From positions 14,728,517 to 14,792,516 of the forward strand of contig CM026426.1 in NCBI GenBank assembly GCA_014871385.1: DNA of 64,000 nt, in the 5' to 3' direction. The notes under the pieces are model-generated. The model was not told the origin of the DNA, did no database searches, and saw only the letters and a program-made list of their open reading frames with translations. The DNA comes from Ceratodon purpureus. Taxonomy: Eukaryota; Streptophyta; Bryopsida; Pseudoditrichales; Ditrichaceae. Shown one piece after another: positions 9,817-31,460 of the stretch; the stretch's first letter is position 1; each line of letters begins with the position of its first letter. Made by a program: the position numbers and the translations under genes.

Positions 9817-9824
9817 TAGATATG
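9817..9824. repeat. hAT target site duplication TAGATATG, left copy
   Basis: Identical to 25611-25618 and directly adjoining the two element ends. Confidence 0.9.
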
Positions 9825-9931
9825 CAGGGTTGTCACGGTCGTCTGGGACACTCAGGACGTGGGGACGTCCGCGGATGTCCGCCAGCGCCAGGGGACGTCC
9901 TGTGACTTAGAAAAAAAAAATCACCCGCATA

Positions 9932-9953
9932 GGTTTCACCCCGGGGTGAAACC
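9932..9953. repeat. Perfect 22-nt palindrome in the left hAT subterminal region
   Basis: GGTTTCACCCC is followed directly by its inverse complement GGGGTGAAACC. It lies between the terminal GGACGTCC motifs and the GC-rich array and could be a transposase binding site. Function is inferred from position only. Confidence 0.7.
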
Positions 9954-9989
9954 AAATCTTCTACGCGGCGGAGGGGTTGCGGGGGAGGG

Positions 9990-10436
9990 TGCGGCCGTCG
10001 CCGCGGAGCGGGGGGGGCCGTCGGACGCGTCGGGAAGGGGCCCTCCCCGGCGACGGACCCTTGCCGTCGCCGCGGTGGGGGGGGCCGTCCCCGGCGACGG
10101 CCCCTTGCCGTCGCCGCGGTGGGGGGGGGGGTCGTCCGTGGCGACGGCCCCTTGCCGTCGCCGCGGTGGGGGGGGCCGTCCCCGGCGACGGCCCCTTGCC
10201 ATCGCCGCGGTGGGGGGGGCCGTCCCCGGCGACGGCCCCTTGCCGTCGCCGCGGTGGGGGGGGGGGGGGCCGTCCCCGGCGACGGCCCCTTGCCGTCGCC
10301 GCGGTGGGGGGGGCCGTCCCCGGCGACGGCCCCTTGCCGTCGCCGCGGTGGGGGGGGCCGTCCCTGGCGACGGCCCCTTGCCGTTGCCGCGGTGGGGGGG
10401 GGCCGTCCCCGGCAACGGCCCCTTCGACGGCCGTGA
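9990..10436 (+). repeat. GC-rich tandem array, about 8 units of 45-50 bp (block 1)
   Basis: Each unit contains the hairpin arms GGCGACGG and CCGTCGCC around CCCCTTG, then GCGGT and a run of 7 to 12 G residues. There are eight full units and a partial ninth. The array ends about 100 bp upstream of a TATA box, so it may act as an upstream promoter element or transposase-binding array for gene A. It produces several long spurious reading frames on both strands. Confidence 0.85.
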
Positions 10437-10532
10437 CAGTCCATGATCGGACGGCCCCTCGTTGACTTACGGCCTCGACGGCCGTCCTCTGTTGATTTTT
10501 AGGGCTTACCCCTTGGCATTTCAGGGAATGAG

Positions 10533-10540
10533 TATAAAAG
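10533..10540 (+). promoter_or_regulatory. TATA box of hAT transposase gene
   Basis: TATAAAAG lies 166 bp before the chosen ATG and just after the GC-rich array. A five-codon upstream frame (ATG at 10587) lies in the presumed leader. Confidence 0.65.
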
Positions 10541-10705
10541 ACCCCTCCTGAAAGTTGCCATTACACTTCTGACAGTCATTTGGGCTATGACAAAGTTCTA
10601 GGGGTACGGTCTAGTGGAGTAGGTCGTTGCACTAATTTGTCACCCGCTATACTGTCCTTGTTCAAGAATTGCGGTGGCAAATTCCCTAACGACTCCAGAA
10701 TATTC

Positions 10706-13429
10706 ATGTCGGAGCAGAGTACTTCCCCCGTGACTCGTGGCAATATATCCCCGAGAGTGAACACTCCCATGGATGTGGACTCATGCGCTGGATCCCGGGT
10801 TTCTACTCCGAAGAATGAACCCGTTTTATTTGGTGAGGGTGTACCTTTCATTTCCACTTTTCCGGGGGAAGGTAGTGGACCGTTTCCTCCTTTTAAGGCA
10901 AAGAGGCAATCTACCCTTCAAGAGGGCTTCGAAGAGACTCAGAGGCGGGAATGCGACAAAGCATGGGCCACATGTTTTTACGAGAACAGTATCTCGTTTA
11001 ACGTGGCTCAGAGTGCCTCTTTCAAGGACGCGGTGTTGAAGACGTCCAACATGAAGAGATCATACACACCTCCATCTTACCACCATCTCCGAACAAATTT
11101 ACTAGCCCAAGCAAGGACTGATTTGGAGACTTCCTTGAATGATAGGATTTTTTCAAGTGTTAGGAAGTACGGGGGAACGTTGGCCCTGGATGGGTGGACT
11201 TCTGTAAGCAGTCGCCCTCTAATAAACGCAATGCTGGTATCTCCAGCTGGTGAGTTATTCTTGGGAGCCGTTGACACGAGTGGGAAAGAGAAGGATGCTG
11301 TTTTCGTAGCAACCGTCATTGAGAAGTTTATCCAACAAGTTGGAGAACAGAACATCATTCAAGTATGCTACGATAATGCTCCGGTGATGCTTAATGCCGG
11401 AAAGTTGGTCCAAGCACTCTATCCATCCATATTTGTCCAAGGATGTGCTGCCCATGCGATGGATCTTTTGTTCGAGGATTGGAGTAAGATGAAGTGGGTG
11501 ACGGAGCTCCTAGATCGGGCTAAGAACTTGGTTAAGTTCATAAAGATAAGGCAAATGCCACTCTCGGTATTTCGAAAGCACGAGGCAAAACTTAGCTTGC
11601 TGATGCCTGGTCAGACTAGGTTTGCATCGCACTACATTATGATTTCGCGTCTACTGAAGGTTCGAGGAGCATTGGAGCAGAGCGTTGTGGATCCTGACTG
11701 GAGAAACTACGAAACGAAGAAGACCTTATCTGCCCGTGACAAAGCGAAGATCTCACGCGATGTTAAGAGGGTTGTCTTGGATGACGTTTTCTGGGAGCAA
11801 TGTGCAAACTTCAAGTGGATGACGAGTCCCGTTGTATATGCCCTACGAGAGTTTGATGCGAAGGAATCGGCATTGGGTAAAGCCTACGTCATTCTCCGCA
11901 ACCTTGAGAAGCATGTTCTCTCTTTACGCCATGAGCCCTTCAAACTAGACTCAGACAATGCTGATTACTGCGAGGACTCATTTTACGAGCGTAAAGCCAT
12001 GATTAAATCACCCTTACAGTGTGCTGCTGCGCTTCTAAACCCTTATCTTATTGACGATGAGGACCTTCGCAATGATACTGATGCAATGGCATCGGCGAAG
12101 GAGGTCTTGTTGTCGATGGCTCCTCCGACACTGAAGGAAGTGGTCATAGAAGAGTTCTTTGCATTTCGTGAAGCTTATCCTCCGTTTCGTGACGTACGTG
12201 AATCCTCTAAGTCACAACTGCCGCCTTCTGGTTGGTGGGATATATACGGATCCGCTGGTAAATTCATTTCCCCAATTGCAAAAAGGATTTTAGCTCAGCC
12301 CCTGTCTTCTTCTTCATGCGAGCGGAATTGGAGTAGCTACTCCTTTGTCCACGACAGGAAGCGAAACCGTTTACTTCCGGAGAGGGCTAATGACCTCGTG
12401 TTTGTGTATACAAATTCCAAGATAATTTCCGAGTCCAAGTTGAGTGCCTTAGGCAGGTTCTACGGGAAGTTGGAGGGGAAGGAGGATCCGAAGGCCGTGG
12501 AAACCGAGGATGTTGACTACTCTAGTGAGTCTGATGTTGATCTACCCTTCGATCATCTATCAATTGACCCCCCCATCGAGGCCCCAGTCGACGACCTCGA
12601 GGTGTCTCCGAAAGGAAAATCCCGTTGTTCTCCTGCGCCAATGGAGCGTGCTTTCGAGTATGATAGTGTCGAAGAAGAAGGTACCAACGAGGAGGATACG
12701 ATTCATCTTTCCTCTTTTTTGAATGGAGACGGTTTATTAAACAGTGATAAGATTCTCCGGGGAGGATCCTCTCATACTACCGTGGATTTGGTCATACCAA
12801 AGAAAGAGGGAGACCCCACCATTGATACTTCTAAGGTTGTTTCTCCAAACTTCAACCGCCTGAAGGACGATATGGTTCCACCCACTACAAAGGAGGATGT
12901 GCCCGTACCCGTATCGGGTGCATCTCGCACATTGTTTGGAACTGCAAAGACTAGGGTCCAAGTTGGTGGGTTTGAATCGTCCACGAGGTTGGTTGAGTTG
13001 TCTAAAAAAATGAAGGCAGATGCTAAGGCTGCTGAAGTAGCGGAGAAATGTAGGAAGAGATTGGTCCGAACCCGACAAGCGGACCCGGGCCTCCTCTCTA
13101 CTGATGACGGACTTCCAATTGGGCATCTCTTTGGGCCGAAGTTGGCTTTGGGAAAACCGGACATATTTCCTGAGAAACCCCCTGCTAGAGCCACGTCCAA
13201 GCGAAAGGCTGTAGACAAGACTCAGAAGGTGTTGGCTTTCAATCCTGGTAGGCCAAAAACTCCTTTGGATGACCCGAATGGCCCAAAGAAATTCCTGAAC
13301 CCATTCGAGTCAAAGAAGAAGAGTAAGGCGAGGGTGAAGAAGGTACGCGAGAGCGATGGCGATGACGAATACGATTCTTCCGGTCCTAGTGGGGCCGAAG
13401 TGAAGGACGACAGCGATTATGTGGCCTGA
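10706..13429 (+). CDS. hAT transposase (DUF659 / hAT dimerisation type), 907 residues
   Basis: This is the likely transposase of the giant element, which would cut and paste the CAGGGTTGT ends. The RNase H-like core shows a conserved ALDGWTS at about residue 160, YDNAPVM at about 222 and CAAHAMDLLF at about 246, matching the DUF659-type hAT family. The C-terminal dimerisation region (SSSSCERNWSSYS, then DRKRNRL) lies at about 535-560. The ATG at 10706 is preferred because an open stretch to 10580 has no ATG and a TATA box lies at 10533. No BED zinc finger is visible at the N-terminus. A tail of about 330 residues follows the hAT domain, first acidic and then lysine-rich, unlike ordinary hAT proteins. 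There is no internal stop, so it may be active. Confidence 0.9.
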   Translation: MSEQSTSPVTRGNISPRVNTPMDVDSCAGSRVSTPKNEPVLFGEGVPFISTFPGEGSGPFPPFKAKRQSTLQEGFEETQRRECDKAWATCFYENSISFNVAQSASFKDAVLKTSNMKRSYTPPSYHHLRTNLLAQARTDLETSLNDRIFSSVRKYGGTLALDGWTSVSSRPLINAMLVSPAGELFLGAVDTSGKEKDAVFVATVIEKFIQQVGEQNIIQVCYDNAPVMLNAGKLVQALYPSIFVQGCAAHAMDLLFEDWSKMKWVTELLDRAKNLVKFIKIRQMPLSVFRKHEAKLSLLMPGQTRFASHYIMISRLLKVRGALEQSVVDPDWRNYETKKTLSARDKAKISRDVKRVVLDDVFWEQCANFKWMTSPVVYALREFDAKESALGKAYVILRNLEKHVLSLRHEPFKLDSDNADYCEDSFYERKAMIKSPLQCAAALLNPYLIDDEDLRNDTDAMASAKEVLLSMAPPTLKEVVIEEFFAFREAYPPFRDVRESSKSQLPPSGWWDIYGSAGKFISPIAKRILAQPLSSSSCERNWSSYSFVHDRKRNRLLPERANDLVFVYTNSKIISESKLSALGRFYGKLEGKEDPKAVETEDVDYSSESDVDLPFDHLSIDPPIEAPVDDLEVSPKGKSRCSPAPMERAFEYDSVEEEGTNEEDTIHLSSFLNGDGLLNSDKILRGGSSHTTVDLVIPKKEGDPTIDTSKVVSPNFNRLKDDMVPPTTKEDVPVPVSGASRTLFGTAKTRVQVGGFESSTRLVELSKKMKADAKAAEVAEKCRKRLVRTRQADPGLLSTDDGLPIGHLFGPKLALGKPDIFPEKPPARATSKRKAVDKTQKVLAFNPGRPKTPLDDPNGPKKFLNPFESKKKSKARVKKVRESDGDDEYDSSGPSGAEVKDDSDYVA

Positions 13430-13790
13430 TTGGGCACGATAGTTAGAAGGCGGCATTTCCAGTGCACCACCCTAGAATGCCACTCTTTTATGAATGTCCA
13501 TTTCTAGAAACCATTATCATATTATATCTCATTTAAGCGGTGGTGCTTGCCTCTTCAATATTGTCCTCCACGTTGTGTACTTATTTTTACTTTGATTGTA
13601 CTTCTCGCAATTTCTTTCTCGTAATGAATGTACACAATCTACATATGAAGTTCGATGCATCTAAGTACTAACAATCATTTCAACACAAATGCAACTCCGA
13701 TAAAACATAAACGAAATTGTATTAAAACTAGAGGTAATTTTTGCAAGTACATATAGAAGTAGTGTAAAGTCCATACACCCGGCTCCGCAA

Positions 13791-13857
<67 letters not shown>

Positions 13858-13935
13858 TGCTCTAAATACGACTATCACCCAGTGTATTGTCACATTAACC
13901 GTAGTAATGCGGGTACCATGTCCAACGTAAATACT
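13430..13935. other. Intergenic gap between convergent genes A and B, with (TA)n
   Basis: The 3' ends of the transposase gene and the RING gene face each other here. The gap is AT-rich and holds a long TA microsatellite; no other gene is seen. Confidence 0.7.
13793..13856. repeat. (TA)n microsatellite, about 32 repeats
   Basis: An uninterrupted alternating AT tract between the two convergent 3' ends. It can form a cruciform. Confidence 0.9.
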
Positions 13936-16900
13936 CTACTCAACGTCCATTGTTTGCATTTGACCTCTGAGTTTGGCGTCGCTGGCTTGGATGTGTAATC
14001 GTACCCCCCGATCGATATCTTCTTCCACGCGATCCAAAGAACGACGATTATCTTCCCCCCATTCGGGGTCATCTTCATAAGGGGCGTCCCGATTGCGCTT
14101 CTTGGAATTCTTCCCGTTCCACAACTCCTTTGCCTTCTCAATCTTGGCTACTGTTTCTTGCACAATCTTCTCAATCCTATTGCGTGACCAACGAGAGGAA
14201 TTATCCTCCGCACGAAGTGCCCTCCTCCAGTCGTTAACTATTTTCTGAAGAGCATCGTCAAACTTCTTAGTGATCACCCAGTAGTCTAGGTCCGAATATT
14301 TGAAGGATTCCTCTGTAAAAGTGCGACGATGCTGAATGGCTTCTTCTAGTTTGGCCAATACAAGTGCCCTACCAACCGGGGTTCTGTCATACATCTTGTA
14401 CTCATCAAGTTGGCCATAGTCCCGTTCTACTTCTCTTCTCTTACCGTCGGCATCTACCACAACTTCCGGTTTAAGAAACCGGAAGAAGCGATTGCGATGT
14501 ATACTCCAATGTCCACCGAAGTTCCTACAAAAAAATTCTCGGTCCTTGGCATCCGGAATTTCACTTGCCCTCATCTCCACCTCATAGTCGTGTGTCATCC
14601 ATGAAAGATCGTCCATTCCGGCATCGTTAGCCGTAGATAGTTGGTGAGTCATTGTCTCCGGGTTCCAAGCCAGTGATTTGCCCCAATCATAATAATTCAG
14701 CTCTTTCTTAGGTAGTTGGTCTAGTGGTAAATTCCACCGATCAAACTCATGCCCAGGCGGCATCACGTGTTGTAGTCCCAGCATCTCGTAAAAACGTGAA
14801 CTAATTGGGGAGCGACACATAACACACTGTTTGTTGTTTAAAGCAGCCTTCGCGATGCAGGTTATGTGGAACTTGTGATTACAATTTCCCATCTCAAAGG
14901 CCCCTTCCGGCCCAAAATATTGTTGACAGATGGGACACGTTTCCTTCGAATATTCCTCCGACGGTTTGCGGGTATGGATAACCACACGTTTCGATTCATC
15001 CAAATGAGATGATAGTACATCGTACGGCATCCACCCCTCCTCGACCTCTAGCGCCCAGTCAATGACCCCTTCTTTATTTTTGGAACTATGTAATGTGCGC
15101 TCCATCATTTCTCCTACATCGCGCCATATCGTGATTTTTGTAGCATCCTCGCCGCCCTTGGCTGCTGCCTCGTTATACTTCTGTAAAGATGATTGGATAG
15201 CTTCTTCGACATCCATAGAAGTAATTGCACATTTCTTCATATCCTGTTGTGCTCTAGAGACTATTGTCTCCTTATCTCGTAGTTTGTGGACCCAACCAAG
15301 CCATGATAATGCCCTTATGGAAGATGGTGTATCATCTACCATCTTTATGGTGGTCTTCAGCCTTTCCAGTTCCGTACGGGCCTCGTCTCTTTCCCTTCTA
15401 GCCACCTCCAAATCCCGTAAAAGAATGTCTAATTCTATTGAATCATCCATTGGCCCTTTTCTACTATCCTCATGTCCTGGTGTTGCTTGGCTAGAGCCAA
15501 TGTCCAATGGATTTGGACCAGATGTCATTTTAGACTTCTGAGACGCCATCCCTTGTGTGGCCCCATCTTCACTTTTATTTGAAAATTTAGAAAGGCCAAG
15601 GTCATCGGAATCCTCACCATCGCTCAGTACTTCAATGATACGAACCTTTCCTTCCACCTTCACCACTTCCTTCTTCACCGTAGGCTTCACTTCTTTTGTT
15701 TTGTTTTTCTCCTTCTCTACCGGGTGGTAGATTTTGCACTCTTCCAATTGTGCATAAAAATTCATCTTCACATGGTCCAACCTTCTTGTCAAACTCTTGA
15801 TTTGTTCCGTTGCATCCATTAAATCCTTACTCAGGGCCACGTTCTCTTCGCCTAACTTCACACGGTCTTCCAGAAGAGGCTTAATGGAAGATGCCAAAGT
15901 GTCAAAGCCAAGGGCACCCTGTATCATGCCCGGAGTGATACTTCCAAATGCATGAGCCATATTTATGAGATCTGGTGCCATAGCGCCTAATACGGAAGCC
16001 CCTTCTTTCAGGGTGTGTGCAATCTTCAACACATTATGAATTTGTTGCACTTCCTCCGTGGTTTTTCTTGCAGCGTCTCCCTCTGTGGTATTCTGTAAGC
16101 CCCCACGCTGTTCATCAGAGGACACCTCCGTCAATTTGATGCTAAAATCTAGTAACTCCTTCAATGATTCATTGTTTGGCATCGACTTCACCAGCTCCAT
16201 AATCTCCGAAATGGAATGAACTGCATCCTTTGTGCTATCCTCTTCGGTAGGCACTTGTACTATTGCCAAGGAACTTGGACCATCATCCACTGAACGAGGG
16301 TTGGAGCATCCGGCTTCCGCAGCCGTAAGATGTGTTGAGCAGTCATTGTCCACCTCCACTTCCACCTCATCTACGGCTGCCTTGCCCTTTGTATCGTTGG
16401 AAGATTTCACCGTGATTTCGAGGTCTGCTCTAGGAATAGTAGGGACATTAGTTTCTGTGGCAACGGGGAACATCGTAGCGATCACATTGGCAATGGCAAC
16501 GGGCTTCTTTTCCTCTGGACGATGCGGAGTTTCATTCTGTAATTTTTTTACTTCATTCTTCGGAAAGCTCTTTAGATGTGGCCACTGCCGCTTTCGGAAC
16601 TCGCTACGACCTTCTTTGCTTCCAAAGGATCGATCAGATATAAATCCCGAATGTCTCTTACCATCCATCCAATTTTCAACGGCCTGTCTTTCGTAGTGGG
16701 GTACGTACACCAACTAATCTTCCGCTTCAATATTAGCTCTGCATATACCATACTGCAAATGGTATAATTGAAATGGCCTTTGCTGGGCTTCCGTTGCCCA
16801 AACATAGTAGTCCAGACTTCATATGCCCGATGCAAGAAATGGTCATCCATGCATGACCAGGGCTTGCAACTAAAAGTCCGTGTGTTCATCTCGTGTTCTT

Positions 16901-17108
16901 CTCGGGGCCACAACTTGTCAATGTGATACATCTTCACATACTTCTTGCACTCCTTGAAAGTCCAGAAAATCTCCCCTACAGATTCCCAGCCTTCTTCTGC
17001 TACAATGTTTTTGTTGTCTAGGATCTCCCAAGAAAAGTTGTGGCACATTCCCTTCGGCCTGTTCCTCTTCCCGGTTCCTCCAATCTCATCATGTTCCGGA
17101 TCCGCCAT
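13936..17108 (-). CDS. RING-H2 protein carried by the hAT element, two exons, 1015 residues
   Basis: Exon 1 is 17108-16662 (149 codons, ATG MADPEHDE). Intron 16661-16537 has GTAAGA and TTACAG borders. Exon 2 is 16536-13936 and ends in TAG. The splice joins two phase-0 boundaries and resolves two overlapping frames. Residues 45-140 form a domain also found in the gene at 21431. The middle is acidic with coiled-coil stretches (RDLEVARRERDEARTELERL). A RING-H2 finger, CPICQ...CNHKFHITC...CVMC, with all eight ligands, lies at about residues 680-725 and suggests a ubiquitin ligase. The 290-residue tail is tryptophan-containing and then lysine-rich. It faces the transposase gene tail to tail. Being intact inside the same transposition unit, it is likely cargo or an accessory mobility protein, possibly acting on host silencing; that role is inference. 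Confidence 0.82.
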
Positions 17109-17339
17109 AGTAACCTCGTTTTAAACAAAAACGATATGGTTTTGTTTTAAAGAAAACAAGGAGTTGATAAATGACGTTTACAAAATAACGAATACAGAAA
17201 ATTCAAAAACTCCCCCCCCCCACAATAAAAAGGGACCCCCATTTCCTCACCCCCACGTACCAACAAGCTCCCAAGTGAATTGGGAAACTGTAGCAATAGG
17301 AGAGGGACTATTGAGGAGAGTGAAGTGAGGAAGTGGGGG

Positions 17340-17890
17340 ACGGCAGTCGCCATATATGGCGACGGCCCCCAACCCTACGGCCGTCCGCCCGAGCCTAGTG
17401 CCGTCGCCCCCCGATCCTACGGCCGCGGCCAATGGCCGTCGTCCCGAACCTGACGACGGCCGTTGGGGGACGTCGGGTCGGGGGCCACGGCGACGGCCGC
17501 GGAGGCCCGTGCCTCCGCGGCCGTCCAATCGGGCTGTGTCCTCGGCGACGGCCGTCCGATGAAGGCCGTCGCCGAGGGGACGACCTTGGAGACGGCCCCC
17601 GAGGGGCGGCTTGCGGCCCTCCGATCGCGGCCGTCCCCGCGGCCGTCGCCGTCCGATGGCGGCCGACCGCGCGGGGACGGCCGCGTAGACGGCCTTGGAG
17701 ACGGCCGCGGGGACGGCACCGTCGGCGACAGCCCGCGGCCGTCCGATCGGGGCCGTCTCCAAGGCGACGGCCGTTCGATCACGGCCGCGATCGAAGGGCC
17801 GTCCCCGCGGACGGGCCCTCGCGGAGACGGCCCACGGCCGTGGAAACGGCCCCCGACCGTGGGGACGAGGCCGTCGCGGCCGCGGGAAAT
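17340..17890 (-). promoter_or_regulatory. GC-rich block 2 upstream of the RING gene
   Basis: This is about 550 bp dominated by CGGCC, GACGGCC and CCGTC motifs in both orientations, with strong self-complementarity. It sits about 230 bp upstream of the RING gene start and ends abruptly against AT-rich DNA. The same kind of block precedes each of the other three hAT-borne genes. Promoter function is inferred from this recurrence. Confidence 0.55.
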
Positions 17891-20400
17891 TTCCCTCCCC
17901 CCCCTTTTTTAAAATACAAATGGAAAAAACATATAATGCTACATCTTCCGACCACATATTACACTAAACCTGTTAATTTCTTTCACCAATTAAAATGAGA
18001 AACAGCAGTTAATGTAAACATGAATGAAAATACTTCATGGTATGCAAAGCATCTAAATTCTTCAACGAGTCATTATTCCGTACGCTCCACTGAAGTTAAT
18101 GTATGTGTCATTTATTCGAATCATTATTTCTGTTGTTTCTATCGTACGCATTTCAAGGTGGTCTATCATCGCACTCCAAAAGTTCCTTGCAGAAATCGAA
18201 CTCATCTAAACTTGTTTCAGAAATTGTAATCTAAATAGTTCTCCGTCTTCTTATTCTCCGCTTTGAATTTTTGTTTTTTTAAATACATAAGTGCTTCTAT
18301 TATACTTTCATTAAACGGCTTCATATTATCAATTTAATTCAAGTTACCATCTCTTTATGTACTTTTAACGTTCCTCCCTCTATACAATTTCCACTTTCGA
18401 ATATTGTTTTCATTTACCTCTTCTTTATTTTCCTCTATGTTTATTCCCCTCTAGTTTATGCCCTTTTTTTAACGTCTAATTTGTCTAATTTAGAACTTCA
18501 ACCCTTGAAGCTCCATAAATGTCATTTTGTGAATTTCTTCCTTTCATATCGTTTTGAACGTTCGTATTTCGATTTATTTCCTCCATGACCCATGTTAAAG
18601 TATATTTTACTAATTCGACCACTATTCCACCATTTTACTAATTCTACCCTACTGCTTTAGTTTTGAATTATATTCTACTAGATGTACCCTACTGCTTTAG
18701 TTTTTATTGAGTACTGTACCCCTCTTTCATATATACGTTTTCAACTCTCCATGTATCTCTACATCATGGCCGACTTCTATTTCTTGTAATAATTATAATT
18801 TCGATACTTTCCCTCTCAAACTATTCTTTTTTCGTCTATTATTTTGATGGTTCACTCATTTGTTTACTTATGAATATACTTCTACTTCACAGCTTTCCCC
18901 AAGTGTATCGATACGTTATTTCTTAATATTACACCCGTCGTCGTTATAGTTCTAATATTCATATCCGTCCTCAAACCTCTTGTTCTTTGTGTTGTTCATT
19001 AATTTAATTAATTACTATTCCGAAACAATACCACCCTACTAAACATCGTTCATCAGTATTTTTAGTATTCCAATAATATATATATATATTTCTAAAATTA
19101 TGTCCCGTCAATATACGTTTTCGTGTAATAATTTTATTTCCGTACTTGTAGCTCCAAGTATTTCACGTCGTGACTTTTTAATTTTTCCTTGGTATAGTAT
19201 AGTCTATGTGTCTCTATGAATTATCGTGCTTGTTAAATTCTCTCATTGTGTCATTAGTAAGTGATTACTTTTGTACGTATGTACTATACATTGTACAAGT
19301 TAGAATCCAATTCCATATTTATATTTACGTTAAAGTGTATATGAATAAACATATATTTGTATAGAGTATAATGTAAATGTGTTACCTAATTTATTTATTT
19401 TATTTCATATAAGTTGCAAGGTACAACTCAATTCTGGGCGTTGGAAACTAGAATTGTTTATAAAAACAATGATTTCAATTTTAGTCGTTCACAAATTGGC
19501 ATTATTCAGTGACGGTTGAATGTTTTCTGTTTTAATTTTGTTTTTTACTATTATCCCTTCCTCATCTCATAATGTGAGCTAGTGATTTTTTATTTTTTTT
19601 TAATGATAACACAGTACTACGGTATAGAAGTTTGTAAAATAAAAGACATTAAAGAGCAAGGAGAGTTTTTATATTTCATATAACTCTAAACCAGCCATGA
19701 GAAATTAGAATTGGACCATTTGTTATGAAAACAATGATTTGAGTTTTATTCCTCCCATGAATTGCATAATCCCAAGAGAATTGAATGTTTGTTTTGGTTT
19801 ATTTCACTTTATTATTATCTCCAGTTTCTCTCATAATCTAAACTACTATTTATGTTTTTATTTTTGATTCTACCATAATACTAAAGAACGAGAGTATGTA
19901 AAATTAAAGAAATAAAACTGGGGTAAATCATTCCATTAAAAATTAGAGTCAAAGAATCTATATAAATATTTTCATTGTATACCACTATTCGAGAAGAAAT
20001 TGGATCTATATTTCTAAGAGATTACCCTAAACCGTAAACCAGTGAAATATAAATGCAAATCTCTTAACCATTTAAACGTAAGGTGCACCGCATGAAAAAC
20101 CAAGTGTGTACATCAATTTATGCGTTGAATTACTTCTAGTGCATTCTCTCCGCGATGTTCCTCTTATCATATTGTTGTTGACATTTACTCTTTTGATTCG
20201 TTAGTATAAAATGTTAATTCATTACCGTATGCTAAAACATGAGTAACTTCGTTTCTTTAAATGACAATTGGTAAAAACTGTTTTAGTGTACCCACAATGT
20301 TTACGGTTCTTTCCATTCAATAGGATATATATTCTTCTTCATAAACGTGTTCACATTATTTGTAGATCCTAGGGGGTTATCCACCCCCAAAGAACCAAAA
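17891..20400. other. AT-rich central spacer of the hAT element
   Basis: About 2.5 kb of AT-rich sequence without protein-like frames separates the two gene pairs. Two loosely similar stretches occur at 19420-19520 and 19670-19760 (both contain a GAAA/CTAGAATT-type core followed by AACAATGATTT), suggesting an old internal duplication. Confidence 0.55.
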
Positions 20401-20639
20401 TATCACATAGTTCATTGGATCCCAATTTCAAACGTCGACCCCACCTCCCCGATCACAGGATCTTCAGGACATTCCCGACAATATCCGGGATATGTCTGAA
20501 TTTTCCATTTGTAGGAGATATGCTGTCCAAACAATCCCAAGTGGGATTGTTTGGGACAAGAAGGAGGGGGGAGAGTAGGGGAGGAGAGGGGGGAGGAGAG
20601 GAGAGAAAACACAAGGGGACGGGAGTTCCTTCGACCCTC

Positions 20640-21060
20640 CCCCCCCCCCCCCCCCCCCCCCCCGGCCGTCCCCGGGGACGGCCTTGGCCGACACCGCGGT
20701 CGCAGCCCCCCGACCCCGGGGTCGGCCGCGGCCGTCCCCGCGGTCGGAAGGTCCGTCCGCGTGGACGGCCCTGGCCGACCGCGTGGACGGCCGTGGCCGA
20801 CCGCGGGGTGGAGCACGGCCGTCCCCGCGGTGGGCCGCGGCCGACCCCAGGGACGCCCGTCGACGTGGTCGGCCGTCCCGACCGCGGGGCGGCAGTCCAC
20901 CGACGCACCCTTTGGGGAGCGGTCGCGGCCGCACGACCGGTCGCGGCCGCGATCGTGGACGGCCGCGACCGCTCCCGCGACGGACCAGTTACGGCCGTTG
21001 GATTCTCCATTCCCCGAGATCCAACGGCCGTAGGGGGGCCGTCGTTTGACCTAACTGGCT
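20640..21060 (+). promoter_or_regulatory. GC-rich block 3 upstream of the RG-rich protein gene
   Basis: It begins with a run of about 24 C residues, followed by about 400 bp of GACGGCC, CGGCCG and CCGCGG motifs. A TATA-like ATAAATGG follows near 21081. The long frames it opens on both strands are composition artefacts. Confidence 0.55.
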
Positions 21061-21130
21061 GCCTAGGGGTTCGGGCCAGCATAAATGGCTGGCCCTTCTT
21101 CCTTTTTCTTCACTTGGGTGCTCGTGCTAC

Positions 21131-21319
21131 ATGTGCTGGATTTACTTCAGCTCAGTTGCGTTCCTCCAAGCTTTTACTACTTCCCCACGGGTTATCGTGG
21201 GATTGTGTTTAGGGTTGTCAGCACTGTTTGTTGGTTATTATGAAACCAACAATATAGTGCTTCATACGTACGGTTTTTTGGCAGGAGTTCTGGGTTTTGT
21301 TTTAGTCCTTATGCACTAG
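21131..21319 (+). CDS. Possible small membrane protein, 62 residues, in the leader of the next gene
   Basis: A genuine ATG opens a short frame rich in hydrophobic residues. It has two candidate membrane segments, VIVGLCLGLSALFVGYY and YGFLAGVLGFVLVLM. It lies between the TATA-like site near 21081 and the ATG at 21431, so it may instead be untranslated leader or an upstream regulatory frame. No homologue is recognised. Confidence 0.3.
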   Translation: MCWIYFSSVAFLQAFTTSPRVIVGLCLGLSALFVGYYETNNIVLHTYGFLAGVLGFVLVLMH

Positions 21320-21430
21320 ATATATACGAGATTAAATCAACTTTTATACGGTGGGGAGAAGTTACAGGCATTGTTACGAGGTTGGTACGATACACGGTAT
21401 TCACAGCTACTCGCTTACCGGACTTTCGCC

Positions 21431-22933
21431 ATGCCTCGTAACGACCGGGGAGGACCCTCCACTCCTAAAAGGAAACACCCCTTGGATCCATACGCTACGA
21501 ATGACCCTGATTGCGTAGCAGAGTTTGGATGGGAGGGGGAACCATCACCATGGCGGATGGTAACTTGCAAGGAATATGTCAAGATGAAGCATCTCATGAA
21601 GTTGATCCCAGTACATCTACGTACCGAGGCTGCGGAGAAACAAGCAATACGGGGAGAGATCAGGATCGACAATTGTGAAAGTAATCATTTCAAAATTCGA
21701 TACAACGAGGTTTTTCGAGCAGCAGGAATCCAGAACTCCCGACCTCATATCATGTTGTATTCGAATATGGCAATGGTGTGGGCGGAGATAGTCTTACATA
21801 AGAGGGTTGACTGGACCACTGTCTCGGGCCTGAGGACAGATAGAATGAACAGAGACAGCATGGATCTTGTAACAGACTGGAGTGGACATAGCGATTGTCC
21901 CCTATTACATATTTCAAACCGTCGGAGTCCACCGGCACAAGATGCAGGAATACAAACTCTAGCCATCGAATATAATGATGAGGAACAGGAGAGACGTCGT
22001 TTAAGCTATGATGATGAAGACAACTATCGAGGGCGTCGCTCAAACGAAAATCCCAGGAATCGCAGAGGGCATCGTGGCAGAGAGTCATCGCGTACCAACC
22101 ATGAGGAGTATGGACAAAGCTCTGCCCACGGGGGACACCGTTCGCTAGATCGTCAGGACATGGGACCCCACGAACGAGGCTATGGCCACGGGGAACCGGA
22201 AGGAGCTGATTTACCCTTTGACTTTGTGGATGGTGCGTATGGACCCTATGGGGGACGACCGTGGCCAGATTATGCAACGGGATCAAGATACTTTAGTAAC
22301 TATGACGACGGCTGGTCGGAAATACCGTGTCCTCCAAGGAGTGCTAGTCCGCGCCATCGAACACCTCCAAGAGAGGTACCTCACGGTTATTCCCCAGATC
22401 GCGAAGAAGATACGCAGAGACCGGGACGTGATGATTACGCAACTCCCCCTCCATACCGCGGATATGGTGGTCATGGTACCCCATCTGCCTTATTTGCAGA
22501 AGATGATTACAGATCATCTTCGCAGACTCCGCCTGGAATATTTCCTCCACCTCTAGGTTATCACACCGACGGTACTGATCACAATAGCGGGGACAACCGC
22601 AACGTACTTCATCGCGATGACAGAGTACCACCTCCTCCTTTTGGATACCCTCCCGGTCGAGTTGTAAGAGATAGCTATTTTGAGGAAGAACTAGAGTTGG
22701 AGCGAACAAGGCAAAATTACGTACTACAGATGGAGAACCATGCGTTTCACCTTAGACGGGATAATCGAAGATTGATGGAGGAGAGAGAGAGACTTCTGAG
22801 AGCCTCCACAAATTCTGCAAGGCACGGGCCACAAGAAACGTACGATCGGGGAGGTCCAAGCGAACTCCCCAATGATGGGAACTATTATCATCCATATGAC
22901 TACAATGGATTAGGGTGGAGGGGAGACTATTAG
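21431..22933 (+). CDS. Disordered RG/GY-rich protein with coiled coil, hAT cargo, 500 residues
   Basis: The ATG at 21431 (MPRNDRGG) is the first in-frame ATG; the open stretch back to 21371 has none. Residues 30-130 match the N-terminal domain of the RING protein encoded at 17108-13936: CKEYVKMKHLMKL against CKKYVKMYHIDKL, and VWAEIVLHKRVDW against VYAELILKRKISW. Residues of about 190-420 are low complexity, rich in R, G, Y, P and D, resembling RNA-binding or condensate-forming tails. A charged coiled coil (EEELELERTRQNYVLQMENH) lies near the C-terminus. No stop interrupts it. Function is unknown. The shared domain suggests it works with the RING protein, for example as a scaffold; that is inference. 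Confidence 0.72.
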   Translation: MPRNDRGGPSTPKRKHPLDPYATNDPDCVAEFGWEGEPSPWRMVTCKEYVKMKHLMKLIPVHLRTEAAEKQAIRGEIRIDNCESNHFKIRYNEVFRAAGIQNSRPHIMLYSNMAMVWAEIVLHKRVDWTTVSGLRTDRMNRDSMDLVTDWSGHSDCPLLHISNRRSPPAQDAGIQTLAIEYNDEEQERRRLSYDDEDNYRGRRSNENPRNRRGHRGRESSRTNHEEYGQSSAHGGHRSLDRQDMGPHERGYGHGEPEGADLPFDFVDGAYGPYGGRPWPDYATGSRYFSNYDDGWSEIPCPPRSASPRHRTPPREVPHGYSPDREEDTQRPGRDDYATPPPYRGYGGHGTPSALFAEDDYRSSSQTPPGIFPPPLGYHTDGTDHNSGDNRNVLHRDDRVPPPPFGYPPGRVVRDSYFEEELELERTRQNYVLQMENHAFHLRRDNRRLMEERERLLRASTNSARHGPQETYDRGGPSELPNDGNYYHPYDYNGLGWRGDY

Positions 22934-23883
22934 AATGGGGTGCATGGTAGTACTTTCTACAGCATCGGAGCGTACCGAGACTTTAATGTGGACTTCGCAT
23001 ATTACAAATTTACAACGGAAAGTAAAAGATGCAAGCATAGTATGTACGTAGTTTGCAATTTTGTAGATGGAGGTTTAAAATGTACGGACTCAAGAATACA
23101 GGCACGTGCCACATTTTGCAAGTAGAATAGATATAATTAGTGTTTTAGAGTGTAGTTGTGTTGTCTTTTATATTGTAGTTGTCTTCACATTTGAAAGGAA
23201 TTTACCTTTTTAATATTCTTGTAGCCGTATTCGAAGTGCACATTACTATCAATATCACTATTTTTAAAATGACAACTTCCTATTGACATGGGTTACGAGT
23301 CTACGGCTTACGAGCACTAGAATATAATGAATCTCAAGACAAGTATGCAAAATAATTTTCAATTATTTTTTTGGCTAAATTAATAAGAATATCGTGAATG
23401 ATATTTTTTGATGGATGCATATTTATATCTAAGGTATTTGTTTGTACAGGGGATTATGAGCAATCACGTTTTGCGGCCCTTACGCTTTCGTCTTCACGAA
23501 AAGAACTTGAGTATACGCTTGCCAATATTTGTAAGAATAAAAATTACAAAGCATAACGGTTACAATTCACATATCGCATAATTTTCATAATTAGAATTGA
23601 GAGTATCGACTTTTAGCTAGATGTGTGGAGCCAATCCGGTTTCCTCATAATACAAGGGGTAGAAATAGACCAATCTTAGTACAGAGACCATATTTGAACC
23701 AAATGCAAGTAAACTTTATAAACAAAATATTGACCGGTGTACAAAAATTGAGATTCCAACATCTCATAATAATATAGAGTGTAAATATGACTATTCACTA
23801 CTAAGAGCTATGCCCGCCGTCCGGTAACAAAAAAAACATTATGCTTTTATAGGAATACGGAAAGGTAGATATGTAACTCCATA
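22934..23883. other. Gap between convergent genes C and D of the hAT element
   Basis: AT-rich sequence between two facing 3' ends. No gene is seen; short chance frames only. Confidence 0.6.
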
Positions 23884-25359
23884 TCAGTAACCCTCGCGAT
23901 AGTGCTCGATGGGAGTGGGCCAGTTGTGTGTATCTCTGAAACGGTTAATAAGATGTCCGAGTCCACCAATAGTTCCTCTGTTGTTTTGGCAAACTCTCTC
24001 AAGGTAACCTTCGAAAACCATTGCGAGTTCTCCGATATTCTGGAAATGGCATGTTTCTACTGGCTCGGCTTCGTGGTATGCCGTGCACATGTTGCCCCTG
24101 TTGATCTTCGCCGCTATCTTCGCAGCTGCGAAATCCTCCGATGCAACCGTCAAATCTGGAATGATTTGAATATCTTGGTTTTCCTTGTGTACGTATACCA
24201 CGCGAGGATCCACCCAGTATCGCCTCCTCATAGTCTCCTCCTTCTGATGGACACTCTTAAAAACCCAAGGCGACCTTCTGTTCTCTAGTGTCTTCGTCAT
24301 CAAGCCCCAATCACAAACCCCGATGTAGATCTTGGACTCATCTTCCGGAAAGTGAAGTAGGATGTTGTCCGGTGACAAGTCATTGTGGAGGTAACCGTAT
24401 TTGTGTACGACATCTATGATGTTACACAATGCCCAAGCAAGCTCTGTACGCTTACTTCGGAAAAGTTGGAGACGCTTCCCTAGAATCGGACTGTCGTCTG
24501 CATTCTCTCTGAAGATGTAGTCGATGGGGAGGTCACCCGGGGCCTCGTTGTCTCTCTGTAGCATGGCTCGAAGGGTCCCACCGTTCCACCTGAACATGAA
24601 TCCCACATGTTCCAACTGATGAATGGCCATGAAGCGGATGACACCAGGATGGGGAATCCTTATCGCAAGAGATTCATTGTTGTGGTCCACACGTGCCAAA
24701 TCCGGCCTCATAGACCAATTGAGCGGCCGTTTCTCAGCAAACTCCCAGTACGGTGGGATTTGCGGGTTTCCTTCGATACGAACCCTACGTATGGTAGCAT
24801 AACCACCTCTCTGGACTTCCTTGTCCAAGTAATAGAAAACTGCAAAGTCTGCCAAGATAGTCAAATGCCGTTTACGTAAGTCAGCCGCCGTCTCCATCCC
24901 AATCGGAGAATTCCACCAAGTAAAAGACGCCCGTCGATGCTTTCTTGAGCTATGGGGCGCCATTAGTCTCGTGAAGCAATCTGCCTTTGCAATAGTATCC
25001 TTGAAGGCCTGGACTCCCCCCCTTTGCGCCTTTGCATACTTAGTAATAACCTCTTTAGCATTCCATAACGCATCGTGTGCACGTTGTGACACGAAATGAT
25101 CGTAACCGGGCTTCTGTGTATCCGAATGCCAGCACGGATCCATCAAACGATCCCTAATCTTTGTCTCCATCTCTGACTTGAATTTCCTGGGCCCATCTTC
25201 CTCATACCGAACGTAACGACTATTCAATGAAACAAGGGTATTCTCCTAGTAAAATTCCACGATGAATGCCACAATATAATCCTTGCAACGTAAGCTCGGC
25301 ATGTCATCGAATTTGTTCGCCCATTCCCCCACATTCTTCTGCTTCTTATTCTTCGGCAT
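23884..25359 (-). CDS. Protein kinase-like protein, hAT cargo, one in-frame TAG
   Basis: An ATG at 25359 (MPKNKKQKN) starts a frame that meets TAG at 25246-25248 (codon 38) and then continues open to the TGA/TAA at 23884. The kinase fold is recognisable: glycine-rich RGGYATIRRVRI at about residue 180, AEK shortly after (candidate ATP-binding lysine), the catalytic loop HNDLSPDNILL at about 320 and DWG in place of DFG at about 347. The catalytic Asp, Asn and Mg-binding Asp are all present, so activity is possible. The single stop may be a recent CAG-to-TAG change, or translation may start downstream. An intron over the stop would be 44 nt or less and is unlikely. It is convergent with gene C and has GC-rich block 4 upstream. 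Confidence 0.72.
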
Positions 25360-25479
25360 CGTGGAAAGCCTTCAAGGCTTCAAGAAATCGTAACCGCAAC
25401 TCCAAAGAAACCCCCAATTCCCACAATGATTAATAAGAGCAATACAAATCCAAAGGGTTTTGAAAAAACCCGTTTAAAA

Positions 25480-25601
25480 CGCAGTCGAGGACGCGGACGG
25501 CCGTGTCTCCGGGGTCGCAAAATTATTACCGCGGCGTAATTCTCGAGCGTCGGGGACGCCACGTCCGGGACGGGGGACGTCCGGGTCGGACGTCTATTTG
25601 A
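25480..25601 (-). promoter_or_regulatory. GC-rich block 4 / right subterminal region of the hAT element
   Basis: CGGACGGCCG, CCGCGG and repeated GGACGTCC/GACGTCCGGG motifs occupy the last 120 bp before the right terminal repeat. They are also the upstream region of the kinase gene. The GGACGTCC motif occurs at the left end too (about 9893), so this is probably a transposase-binding subterminal region as well as a promoter. Confidence 0.6.
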
Positions 25602-25610
25602 ACAACCCTG

Positions 25611-25618
25611 TAGATATG
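25611..25618. repeat. hAT target site duplication TAGATATG, right copy
   Basis: Identical to 9817-9824. Confidence 0.9.
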
Positions 25619-26367: not shown

Positions 26368-29300
26368 ATGGAAACAAACAAGGAAGCAACTTTAGGTGAG
26401 AGTATGAAGCTCGAAGGACCCTCAAACTACTCAATCTGGGCGTTTAATATGAAGCAAATTATGCTTAGAGAAAAAGTTTGGTCAGTAGTAGATATGCCTT
26501 AGACCACATAACAGTCAGGTACAACTAGCGATAGTACCTCATCTCCAAGTTCATGAGTTATTACACAGCAAAACACCACGACTACAGGAGGTGATGCTCC
26601 AGCCGCAAGCACGTTTACTACGTCAACATCAACCGTACTTGCCAACAATCAGAGAGCAGCCGAGTTACAGGAGCTTAAAAACAAGGCATTTGCTCTCATC
26701 ACTGGGGGGAAGCACAATAAAGTGGACCACAAAAGTGCTTAGCTCATTGCCAATTTCAGCCTGTTGTATAAACCCGCTAGAAAGTGGCATCTAAAACTTC
26801 TTGATGGGAAATTAAGTTTAGGATACGGAAAGTAGACTTGATGTACTACAACTTCCGAAATTTGCATTTGTAGTTGTTGAGTTGAGACACCTCTATGAAC
26901 ACGACAAAGTTGAACAAAGTGAATGCAGTCATTTGGAAAAGTGACCGTATTACATTGTAGTTTTGACAGAAATCACTTTTAACTTTGTGGGGCCCTTCGT
27001 TTGTACATTACGCTTGTAGAAATGATCCGGGTGGTCGTGTTTGCAATCCTAGATTGGCAAAAAGTATCCCCGGGACGTTTTTAAAACACTGTTTTCGGTG
27101 AAACTTTTTGTGAGGTTTTTTTCACCGAAAATTGTTTTTTAAATTGGAAAAAACATCCTCTGAAGACAATAGAGGGCCCCAAATGAAGAAATCAAGACTT
27201 TGGAAAAGTTCATTTTCATGATTTAGAACTGGGGGTCAAATAAAGTTTCAATTGAAGATGTTTTTTTCATTGAGATGTGTGTAAGATACCTTATGACACC
27301 TTAGAAAGTGACTAAAATGCTCAAAAACTACACCAAAATGCTCAAAATCAGCTTTGAGCTATAAAAAACAGCACACTTCATATTCACTTCCTAGTGATCA
27401 CATATTGCACTTGGTGGTCCACTTTATTGTGCTTCTCCCCCACTCTCTCGGTAAAGGACACTATCATACCACATTTGATGAGCTTTTCTGATCCTGCATT
27501 AGTTTGGAGCAAGCTCAAAAATCTGTATGAATCATCTTCTTCTGCTAGGCATCTCATGCTTAAACATAAGTTATACACTATCAGATTTCCAGAAAATAAG
27601 TCTGTAGAAGACTACCTAAAGATGATAGGAACAATAGTCACCCAACTTGGGAATCTCGGCACTCACCTTGCCGATGAAGAAATCGTTGACATTGTTCTTA
27701 TAGGATTACCACCTAGCTGGACTATTTTTCGGCAAATGATGACGGCGCGGGCGGTTCTCCCTACATTCAACGAACTGGAATCAGCATTACTATTAGAGGC
27801 AGTGAGACGCAATGTAGACAGAAACAAAGAAGATGAGGAGGAGGCATTATTTACCCGCACACAGATTCAGAATCCCAGAGGACACAGTAGCTATCGCGGA
27901 TTCCGAGGACGCGGGAGACAGCCATTCAGAGGGGGACGTCGAGGTTCCTCTCCTTACTCCAACCTGCGTACAGACACAGGGAATCAGCAACAGACGGATT
28001 ACAGGTACCGCAACGACGGAGCTTGCAACTGGTGCGGCAGTTTCGAACATTTTGAACGTGACTGCAACGTTAAAGCTTTAGAGCTTAAACTTAAGGACTT
28101 GCAGATGGAACTTACTAAGATCAAGCGCCCTGGAAGTCAGCAGGTCCATATTGACGAGGCCGAAGAAACTGAGGGTGAAGATGATGCCGACGTCTCCACT
28201 ACTCTCGAAGCATGCATGACGGAATATCCATCGGAATCTTCTTCAATGTGGTTCCTGGACTCTGGGGCTAGTAACCACATCACAGGAGACAAGAGTCTCA
28301 TTAGTAATGTTTCTGAACCCTCTATCTCCACGAATATTAGAACTGCTAGTGGAGCCACACTGCCGGTAGTTGGCAAAGGTGTTATCTCTTTGAACAAAAA
28401 TAAAGTTTTTGAACACGTTCTTTATGTCCCGGGAGTGAAGAAAAATTTACTATCTGTTGGAGCATTGGCTGATCGGGGACACAGCATATTATTTGTCAAA
28501 CAGAAATTCTATATCTTTGACAACAAGGACTGTAGGAAGATCTATTTACATGGTACACGCGACATGCAAAACAATCTCTACAGACTACAAGCAGGGGGGG
28601 ACTCGGATACTTATCTTGCAGCTCATATCGCCACCTTATTAGCTACATCATCATTAACTACTGCAGAGCTATGGCATAGACGCATCGGCCATCTGAATTT
28701 TCAAAGTTTATATCATCTTTCCAATCAGGATATGATCAGTGGCGTACCAAAACTGCCCTTGCTAAAACAAGTATGTGACACTTGCGTCATGGCAAAGCAA
28801 CAGAAGGGGCGAGCTCCTAAACTCAGCAAAACCAATACGTCCCGAGTTCTTGAACTCATTCATTCTGATATTTGCGGTCCCATTAGGATCAGATCCCTCA
28901 CAGGTTCCAGATACCTCATCACCTTTATTGATGATTACTCAAGAAGAACATGGGTATATTTCTTATCTCACAAGAGTGAAGCTCTCAGCAAGTTTCAGAA
29001 TTTTTGTCAGATGGCAGAGGCTGAAACAGGCGAACGTCTTGCAACTTTACGGACAGATCGTGGTGGTGAGTACCTATCTCACGAATTCATTGCATTTTGT
29101 TCACAAATGGGCATAAAACGGCAGTTAACCACTGCTTACTCCCCTCACCAGAATGGTAAGGCTGAGCGCAAGAACAGAAGTCTGGTTGAGACTGCCCGGG
29201 CTCTTGGACATGGGCTGTCGGGTTACCTTTGGGAGGAGTGTGTCAGGACGGCAAACTATATTCTCAATAGGTGCTCCACTAAAGCATTGGACAAAGTTAC

Positions 29301-31460
29301 TCCATTAGAGCAATACTCCGGTTGCAAACCAGATTTAAGCCATCTTCGGGTCTATGGTTGTAGAGCCTATGTGCATATTCCTCGAGAGAAACAGACCAAG
29401 TTGGAGGTTAAGTCCATACGTTGTATTCTCATTGGATACGATGACCAATCTAAATCATACAGGTGTTTTGAACCCACAAAGAGAGGCATACTTATAAGCA
29501 AGGATGTCATATTTGATGAAACTATACTCGGATTCTCTACCTCAACTTCATTAGATCCCTCAAATCCTTTCTTAGAATATCTACAACTTCATGACCAGGA
29601 AAGTGAGCACAAACCTTCACGGGCTCCAGTAGAACCTGTACAGGCCCCAGTAATTCCTGAAACCGCTCCAATCTATGAGCCTCCTGATTCTCCGCCAAGT
29701 ATCACCGCGGAATTAGCTCCAACTCCACTTCCACTTTGCAGATCTGCACGATCAAGGCAACCTCCGATTAAGCTTCAAGACTACCACTTACTTTTAGCAA
29801 ATGCGCAAGAAGTTTCACCTACCTTGCCGTCTGAGCCTATAACAAACAATATAGCCTTAGAAGATGCAATCAAAAATCCAGCCTTGCTCTCGGCATGCAA
29901 GAGGAAATTACGGCAATAGAACAAAACCACACATGGGACTTAGTAACTTTACCTGCTGGACAGAAGCCCATTTCCGCCAGATGGGTATTTAAGTTAAAAA
30001 CAGGATCATCTGGCGTCAAACACAAATAAAAAGCTAGGCTTGTAGCCTGAGGCTTTGAGCAGAGACAAGGTATCGACTACAGCGAGACCTTTGCTCCCAC
30101 GGTTAAGTGGTCAATAGTTCGACTGATCACAGCCTTAGCAGCCTCCAATGGATGGCAAATACATCATCTCGATGTTGTCACAGCGTTTCTGAATGGTGAT
30201 CTTAAGGAAGCGGTCTATATGCAACAACCTCCAGCCTTTCAGAAAGCTAGACAGGAACACCTTGTTTGCAAACTGAGAAAATCCCTTTACGGTCTTAAGC
30301 AAAGCCCGAGAGCCTGATACGAGTGCATTGACTCTCGCCTTCAGGCTCATGGACTTAAACGCTGCCAGGGGGACAACAATCTTTACTATTTCCGGGATCA
30401 TGATGAAATTGTCTTCTTGATCTTATATGTTGATGATCTTTTCCTAACTGGAAATAGTCCAGCTCGCATCTCATGGCTCAAGACGTTACTTAAACAGATG
30501 TTCAAGATAGTAGACCTCGGCTTGGTCGAAAAGTACTTGGGCGTCCAATTTGCCCACTGTCAGGAAGGGATATTCCTACATCAGCGTGCTTATGCACTTC
30601 TGATGTTGGAACGCTTTCAAATGGAGGACTGCAAACCGGCATACACCCCTCTCCCTGAAGGTTTGAAACTTATCTCCCAAACCGATTCCCCAGCCGTTGA
30701 TTCTACATCATAGTGTGAACTTGTTGGCTGTCTTCTCTATTATACGATTACAAGGGCAGATTTACAGTTTGCCATCAGCCTTGTAAGCCGATTCATGGTA
30801 AACCCTCAACAAATGCACCTTGATGCTTGTTTACATATCCTACAATATGTCAAGCATACAATCAATTATGGTATTCTATATCAAAAAGGACCCAATTACA
30901 ATCTGCAAGGGTATATTGACGCTGACTGGGGAGCCTGTGAGGATACTCGCCGTAGTACTGGAGGATACATGTTTATCATGGCTGGCGGTCCAATTTCTTG
31001 GTCTAGCAAACGCCAACCGACAATTAGTCGCTCCTCCACCGAAAGCGAATATCGGGCCCTCTCCGATGGTACTCAAGAAGGTATCTGGCTTCGCCGGATG
31101 CTTCTTGAACTTGGTTTTCTGCCCAATACTGCCATTCCGGTTAGCTGTGTAGATCTTTACATCCTCGGGGCCCTGCCATACAGCCCAATTAACATTGGTT
31201 GTGATAACCAGGGAGCAATAAAACTTGCTCGGAACTCAGTTTTCTACGCCCGCACGAAGCATATAGAATTACATCACTATTTCGTCAGAGAGCGGGTTGT
31301 AGAGGGGGAAATCTGCCTTCACTACATACCTACGTCCCAACAACCCGCAGATATTTTGACAAAACCCTTAGGTAGAAACAATTTTGAATTCCATAGAGAA
31401 ACCATCGGCATTACAGAATTTTCTACCCTACATCCTACCTCATCTCAAACTGGCCGCTAA
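26368..31460 (+). pseudogene. copia gag-pol polyprotein, disrupted
   Basis: The frame starts at ATG 26368 and is stopped at 26500 (TAG) and again shortly after. It is interrupted at 26704-27441 by an inserted element and then open from 27445 to 29919. That part holds the gag UBN2-like region, the knuckle CNWCGSFEHFERDC, the protease motif WFLDSGASNH, the pre-integrase LWHRRIGHLNF and an integrase core with HSDICGP, RTDRGGE and NGKAERKN. A one-base shift near 29890 is needed to enter reverse transcriptase, which has stops at 30027 (TAA), 30048 and 30315 (TGA) and 30711 (TAG). The LYVDD box lies near 30425 and the RNase H motif DADWGAC near 30920. The C-terminus TKHIELHHYFVRE is intact. The breaks make autonomous activity unlikely. 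Confidence 0.9.
26704..27441. mobile_element. Short inverted-repeat element (MITE) inside gag, 738 bp, 3-bp duplication ACT
   Basis: The left end is GGGGGGAAGCACAATAAAGT and the right end is a near-perfect inverse over about 35 bp. ACT flanks both sides (26701-26703 and 27442-27444). Joining the flanks with one ACT restores the gag reading frame, which confirms the borders. There is no credible coding capacity. Near 27085-27135 a hairpin with arms TTTTCGGTGAAA and TTTCACCGAAAA is present. The 3-bp duplication and G-rich ends resemble PIF/Harbinger-type elements, although ACT is not the usual TWA, so the superfamily is uncertain. Confidence 0.85.

Follow-up and report, generated by a model that had tools for sequence, protein, structure and literature searches.

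A four-gene hAT transposon of the moss Ceratodon purpureus that has moved as one unit and carries a motif-rich island before each gene

Ordinary hAT elements consist of a single gene within a few kilobases, and the question raised by one locus of the moss Ceratodon purpureus is what an element of this superfamily is doing with four. The DNA analysed here (the window) is 64,000 nucleotides long and corresponds to positions 14,728,517-14,792,516 of contig C6, which spans 110,524,308 bases. Positions 9817-25618 of the window are occupied by one hAT element of 15,786 bp together with its flanking duplications, as judged from 9-bp terminal repeats, an exact 8-bp duplication and a hAT transposase gene, and the transposase gene is accompanied by genes for a RING-H2 protein, a disordered protein and a protein-kinase-like protein. 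The last of these matches C. purpureus KC19_VG055000 at 96%, and on the assumption that 'VG' denotes the V sex chromosome we take C6 to be the V chromosome. In window coordinates, the element is laid out as follows.

9817-9824: target-site duplication TAGATATG, left copy
9825-9833, plus strand: left terminal inverted repeat CAGGGTTGT
9825-10700: island A, rich in GC and CpG, with a 44-bp tandem array containing GGCCGTCC, upstream of the transposase gene
9863-9900: left subterminal palindromes GGACGTCC, starting at 9863 and 9893
10706-13429, plus strand: hAT transposase, 907 amino acids, intact, with Pfam matches
13936-17108, minus strand: RING-H2 protein gene, about 1,060 codons in open copies, with a zf-RING_2 match
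17109-18100: island B, motif-rich and GC-rich, upstream of the RING gene
18100-20300: AT-rich centre between the two gene pairs, without the motif
20300-21430: island C, motif-rich and GC-rich, upstream of the disordered-protein gene
21431-22933, plus strand: accessory (disordered) protein, 500 amino acids, intact
23884-25359, minus strand: protein-kinase-like gene, 491 codons, with one in-frame stop in this copy
25360-25610: island D, upstream of the kinase gene, truncated in the window copy
25575-25582: right subterminal palindrome GGACGTCC
25602-25610, minus strand: right terminal inverted repeat CAGGGTTGT
25611-25618: target-site duplication TAGATATG, right copy

An earlier note, made from the letters of this DNA alone, had described matching ends and an exact 8-bp duplication around a hAT transposase, and both are present, the ends being confirmed by other copies. 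Exact copies of CAGGGTTGT number two in the window, both at the element's ends; because 9 of 100 shuffled windows contain at least two, the ends alone prove little. Of 467 CAGGG...CCCTG pairs lying 0.1-30 kb apart in the window, only the element's own is flanked by an exact 8-bp duplication, which, with the recurrence of the ends in other copies, rules out chance ends. Three of the window's four GGACGTCC palindromes sit less than 80 bp from the element's ends, with both ends represented. Pfam recognises DUF659 (E 1.1e-34) and Dimer_Tnp_hAT (E 8.8e-10; 38.7 bits against a cut-off of 21.4) in the transposase, which aligns weakly with Hermes (E 0.13). D162 and E539 line up with Hermes catalytic residues in weak alignments in which the second Asp falls beside a gap, and the catalytic residues are likely to be D162, D223 (uncertain) and E539. 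An N-terminal BED zinc finger is common in hAT transposases but not universal; here, none was found in the transposase open reading frame (ORF) by Pfam match or by a pattern scan for BED-like spacing, nor by eye in the frames upstream. The element is thus a hAT by its 8-bp duplication (seen in the window and in 6 of 6 other copies that could be read), its short hAT-type ends, and its transposase with a dimerisation domain.

Whether the four genes travel together can be judged from other copies in the same genome. Genome searches scored the best 50 of 1,384 candidates for the transposase, the best 51 of 1,193 for the RING protein, and the best 86 of 1,149 for the kinase (with a distant relative as query), so that all counts are lower bounds. 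Transposase matches number at least 50, at 95-100% identity on 11 contigs, the window's own included, and 32 of the 50 lack stops; in at least 35 of these 50, a convergent RING gene lies 467-599 bp away. There are at least 51 RING matches (43 without stops) and at least 86 kinase matches (56 without stops), the latter including one solitary gene on contig C3. Among the matches listed, stop codons are commoner on C6 than on other contigs for all three genes, with uninterrupted fractions of 12/23 on C6 against 20/27 elsewhere for the transposase, 20/27 against 23/24 for RING, and 27/51 against 29/35 for the kinase. Three equal-scoring RING matches, each beside a transposase match, lie within about 0.1 Mb at C6:100.69-100.80 Mb, which suggests that a segment of the V contig has been duplicated.

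Of the 49 other transposase matches, the ten that scored best were examined as whole copies, a choice that favours copies close to the window's, and the togetherness of the four genes is established for these rather than for every listed match. Each of the ten contains all four gene sequences, about 98% identical and in unchanged order, with some genes broken; in three of the ten, all four genes are open. The left end is the same in all ten, one with a single change, and both ends are present in seven, the other three carrying gaps (N) towards the right. These seven measure 16,619-16,804 bp. The same ends are accompanied by perfect 8-bp duplications, all different, in the six copies with readable flanks (GCTCAAAG, TGCCCACG, AAAAAAAT, TTTGTTTC, GTAATGAC and CCAAACTG). 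Pairwise divergence among the ten copies and that of the window is 0.20-2.15%, with some pairs at 0.2-0.3%, low values that point to recent transposition. A further C6 copy, examined over 14.6 kb, has the four genes in one stretch at about 97% identity; its transposase is interrupted by one stop and its disordered protein by two. Compared with most examined copies, that of the window is missing about 300 bp in front of the transposase and the greater part of island D. An empty site was sought by joining the flanks of the window copy and of six others, and no junction-spanning match was present in the DNA examined; apart from self matches, the comparison gave a single 58-bp match at 81%. The suggestion that the package had moved as a unit is thus borne out by shared genes, order and ends and by duplications that differ from copy to copy; all seven two-ended copies are full-size. 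The entire four-gene interval has moved as one 16-17 kb unit.

The condition of the genes within this unit is uneven. The earlier note had counted three uninterrupted genes and a fourth with a single stop; the kinase does have its one stop, at 25248, but compared with one open copy the RING gene of the window carries two frameshifts of one base each, near 16602 and 14018, which leaves only the transposase and the disordered protein uninterrupted in the window copy. An open version of each of the four genes exists among the examined copies. Selection was assessed by counting variable codons among the copies open in a given gene, and the p-values are rough because related copies are not independent. 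The ratio of non-synonymous to synonymous change (omega, or dN/dS) between copies is 0.28 for the transposase (33 synonymous, 26 non-synonymous, 10 copies, p 1.7e-6), 0.39 for the disordered protein (19 and 21, 8 copies, p 0.003), 0.55 for RING (23 and 38, 7 copies, p 0.02) and 0.66 for the kinase (9 and 18, 6 copies, p 0.21), and RING variants common to more than one copy give 0.87 (p 0.48). Against the further C6 copy, the corresponding values are 0.47 (p 0.002), 0.55 (p 0.05), 0.81 (p 0.23) and 0.57 (p 0.07). The claim that the package is under selection therefore holds for the transposase and the disordered protein, is weak for RING, and fails to reach significance between copies for the kinase. 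Over longer distances, the core residues of the kinase and the zinc ligands of RING are invariant in the relatives aligned.

The RING protein consists of an N-terminal domain shared with the disordered protein, a helical middle, a RING-H2 domain and a conserved C-terminal region. It matches zf-RING_2 at E 2e-07, the eight C3H2C3 zinc ligands are invariant in 12 of 12 aligned sequences, and the best matches among solved structures are the RING domains of RNF24 and Arkadia; it is likely to be a ubiquitin ligase. An AlphaFold model of the whole protein had a mean predicted local distance difference test score (pLDDT) of 38.6 and was not used. The accessory protein has the same N-terminal domain followed by a long low-complexity tail, disordered by eye, and its shorter relatives likewise consist of the shared domain and such a tail. 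The two proteins are homologous over roughly their first 150 residues (hhalign probability 99.8%, E 5.8e-28), C46, H54, C82 and H86 are invariant in 26 sequences of the disordered family and in the window RING protein, and a structure model of the domain from the disordered protein has a core pLDDT of about 90. Elsewhere in the window, four unnamed ORFs (49626-51100 and 57857-60067 on the plus strand, 63194-63706 and 32647-33798 on the minus strand) loosely resemble the RING protein by eye, with an N-terminal region bearing an 'NWA'-like motif or RING-like cysteine clusters, and none of them was matched significantly by profiles of the shared domain.

The kinase of the window matches Pkinase at E 2.4e-05, short of the Pfam gathering score, and Pkinase was matched at E<=0.001 in 35 of 39 relatives. 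Of the 73 relatives found, 39 were aligned, and K210, E229, D327, N332 and D350 are invariant throughout these; they correspond to the catalytic set of Lys, Glu, HxD-type Asp, Asn and DxG Asp. Named kinase relatives include one V-linked Ceratodon protein, one from Ceratodon chromosome 3 and one from a bacterial metagenome-assembled genome, the last likely a contamination, and a search of viral contigs with the kinase returned zero relatives. For the other two extra proteins, relatives number 27 for the disordered protein and at least 11 for RING, in a search that scored the best 7,992 candidates, those sharing most words. Identities to the nearest relatives fall in similar steps for all three (81, 66 and 40% for RING; 96, 78, 61 and 50% for the kinase; 98 and 77% for the disordered protein, then 35-57% over partial length), which suggests that the genes may travel together elsewhere too.

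What ties the four genes to one another is the sequence in front of them. All 25 occurrences of GGCCGTCC in the window fall inside the element, and all within the four GC-rich islands, each of which lies directly upstream of one gene. Two 10-mers are common to all four islands, a result reached in none of 200 shuffles. The seven copies with both ends contain 55-64 GGCCGTCC each; that at C1:9171479 has 14, 10, 14 and 24 in islands A to D and zero in its coding sequence or centre, island D there being about 1.1 kb long with its 24 motifs. The flanks of six copies contain three GGCCGTCC in 17.4 kb, all beside one copy; element-specificity is judged on the window and on the flanks of the examined copies. 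The half-site GGACG, which is half of the subterminal palindrome GGACGTCC and also lies within the island sequence GGACGGCCGTCC, occurs in the C1:9171479 copy at 21-31 per kb in the islands as against 0-2.6 per kb in coding sequence and in the centre. The number of 44-bp units in island A varies between copies, from 2 to 11 by one measure, and the observed/expected CpG ratio of the islands is 1.04-1.33, that is, without depletion.

The earlier note had ventured that the extra genes might counter host silencing or control transposition, and the motif islands before all four genes give that idea a concrete form. Because the layout of the motif is the same in kind as that of the VANC system discussed below, we infer that a protein of the element recognises the motif, most likely through the shared N-terminal domain, and so maintains promoter activity, and it is likely that the element keeps its own genes switched on through the GGCCGTCC arrays. 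This domain, common to the RING protein and the disordered protein, is predicted to bind GGACG in GGACGGCCGTCC and GGACGTCC. The disordered protein would then coat the arrays and hold promoters open against silencing by DNA methylation, as VANC does; the RING protein would deliver ubiquitin-ligase activity there, removing a silencing factor or limiting the transposase; and the kinase might tune one of these partners. That the three extra genes form such a module for self-protection and regulation, acting through an element-specific motif within a package moved whole, seems to us somewhat the better bet. More tentatively, and with less confidence, a moss lineage of hATs could have become a virus-like, self-governing element, with all its genes run from one private promoter code guarded by its own DNA-binding protein, and with its own ubiquitin ligase and kinase aimed at the same sites to dismantle host silencing.

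Several observations weigh against assigning the extra genes a protective or regulatory role. The dN/dS of the kinase between copies is not significant and the constraint on RING is weak. Furthermore, a kinase relative at C3:9421637-9423121 stands without a surrounding element: it is open over its length, has DWS in place of DWG, and is 68% identical to kinase relative P0017 and 50-57% to three others tried, while the 19 kb around it contain no GGCCGTCC and no transposase, RING or disordered-protein match to the relatives tried. This gene is possibly a domesticated or an ancestral host copy, and an ORF adjoining it resembles an aquaporin by eye. A fold search of the shared domain against PDB and viral models returned nothing at E 0.001, nor does the domain have a confident Pfam match; zf-C3HC matches 9 of the 27 members weakly (best E 0.0054), which hints at a zinc-binding fold. 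Many 1-kb bins outside the element have CpG ratios of 0.5-0.7, but some reach 1.0, so that the CpG content of the islands is weak evidence, and GC-rich islands with normal CpG may be merely strong promoters. The extra genes might instead be passengers, host genes captured by chance with no role in the life cycle of the element. In favour of this stand the lone kinase gene on C3, whose reading frame is open for 494 codons, and the weak constraint on kinase and RING between copies, and gene capture by DNA transposons is known. We nevertheless consider this improbable, given that the same four genes recur in 10 of 10 examined copies, that 43 of 51 RING and 56 of 86 kinase genes among the matches listed have no stop, that a motif island stands at all four genes, and that one domain is common to two of the three extra genes.

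In the main rival explanation, transposition itself is what the accessory genes act on: the shared domain would recognise the ends in trans, as in the two-protein Harbinger elements, and RING and kinase would control the amount or activity of the transposase. A transposase with only DUF659 and Dimer_Tnp_hAT by Pfam and no BED zinc finger would suit such a division of labour, as would GGACGTCC palindromes within 80 bp of both ends whose half-site is common with the islands. However, islands B and C, each over 5 kb away from both ends, are motif-dense as well, a distribution that fits promoter control better than end recognition, which leaves this rival rather unlikely, if less so than chance capture. 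Least credible of all, to the point of being very improbable, is a fusion of two two-gene units (transposase with RING, disordered protein with kinase) that is mobile because its outer ends survive. The two convergent pairs, each flanked by islands and separated by a 2.2-kb AT-rich centre, have the look of such a history, and one domain occurs in both the RING protein and the disordered protein, as it might after a duplication; yet the window holds no internal ends, only the two CAGGGTTGT, the seven two-ended copies are all full-size, and a fusion would describe a possible origin and not the present unit. A module that protects or regulates the element through its own motif thus remains the reading that we prefer.

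Two other coding pieces lie in the window outside the element. At 27478-29919, on the plus strand, lies a Copia-type retrotransposon polyprotein (gag, GAG-pre-integrase and integrase core), and at 36798-37385, on the minus strand, a piece of a DUF7869 protein, presumably a remnant of another mobile element.

Young copies of a four-gene hAT on the V contig and on at least ten other moss contigs offer a testable case of escape from silencing, one that bears on whether transposons can turn ubiquitin ligases and kinases on the host, as well as on the role of the new shared domain. Because three examined copies have all genes open, the parts could be assayed singly in laboratory mosses or in Arabidopsis.

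Ac, Tam3 and ordinary hATs have an 8-bp duplication, short CAGGG-type ends, a hAT dimerisation domain and subterminal repeats, and it is in its four genes within about 16.8 kb that the moss element differs from them. A partial survey of the literature, covering titles and the openings of abstracts, found no description of a multi-gene hAT in mosses, nor of a hAT with RING, kinase and a duplicated new domain under one motif. In the parts of the source consulted, TET+ hAT7 elements of rust fungi are described as carrying an extra gene thought to counter silencing (Kojima 2025, PMC12730594). Unlike the moss element, these have 7-bp duplications, a TET/JBP dioxygenase as cargo and a fungal host, and a term search of the paper found neither 'ring finger' nor 'moss' (PMC12730594). 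The same source, as far as consulted, describes fungal IS3EU elements with an alpha-kinase gene opposite to the transposase (PMC12730594); there the superfamily differs, and the moss kinase is Pkinase-like. The closest parallel in layout is VANDAL21 of Arabidopsis, whose VANC21 protein, according to the portions of the paper seen, binds a nine-base motif dense in the non-coding regions of its own element, often in tandem repeats, with sequence-specific loss of methylation at that element (PMC5735166). Both are multi-gene DNA transposons with a motif concentrated in their own non-coding, partly tandem regions. VANDAL21 is Mutator-like, whereas the transposase here is that of a hAT and the motif is GC-rich and palindromic. 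To our knowledge, VANDAL21 has no counterpart of the RING protein or the kinase. What is new here is the N-terminal domain common to the RING protein and the disordered protein, and the CpG-rich GGCCGTCC island that stands before each gene of the moss element.

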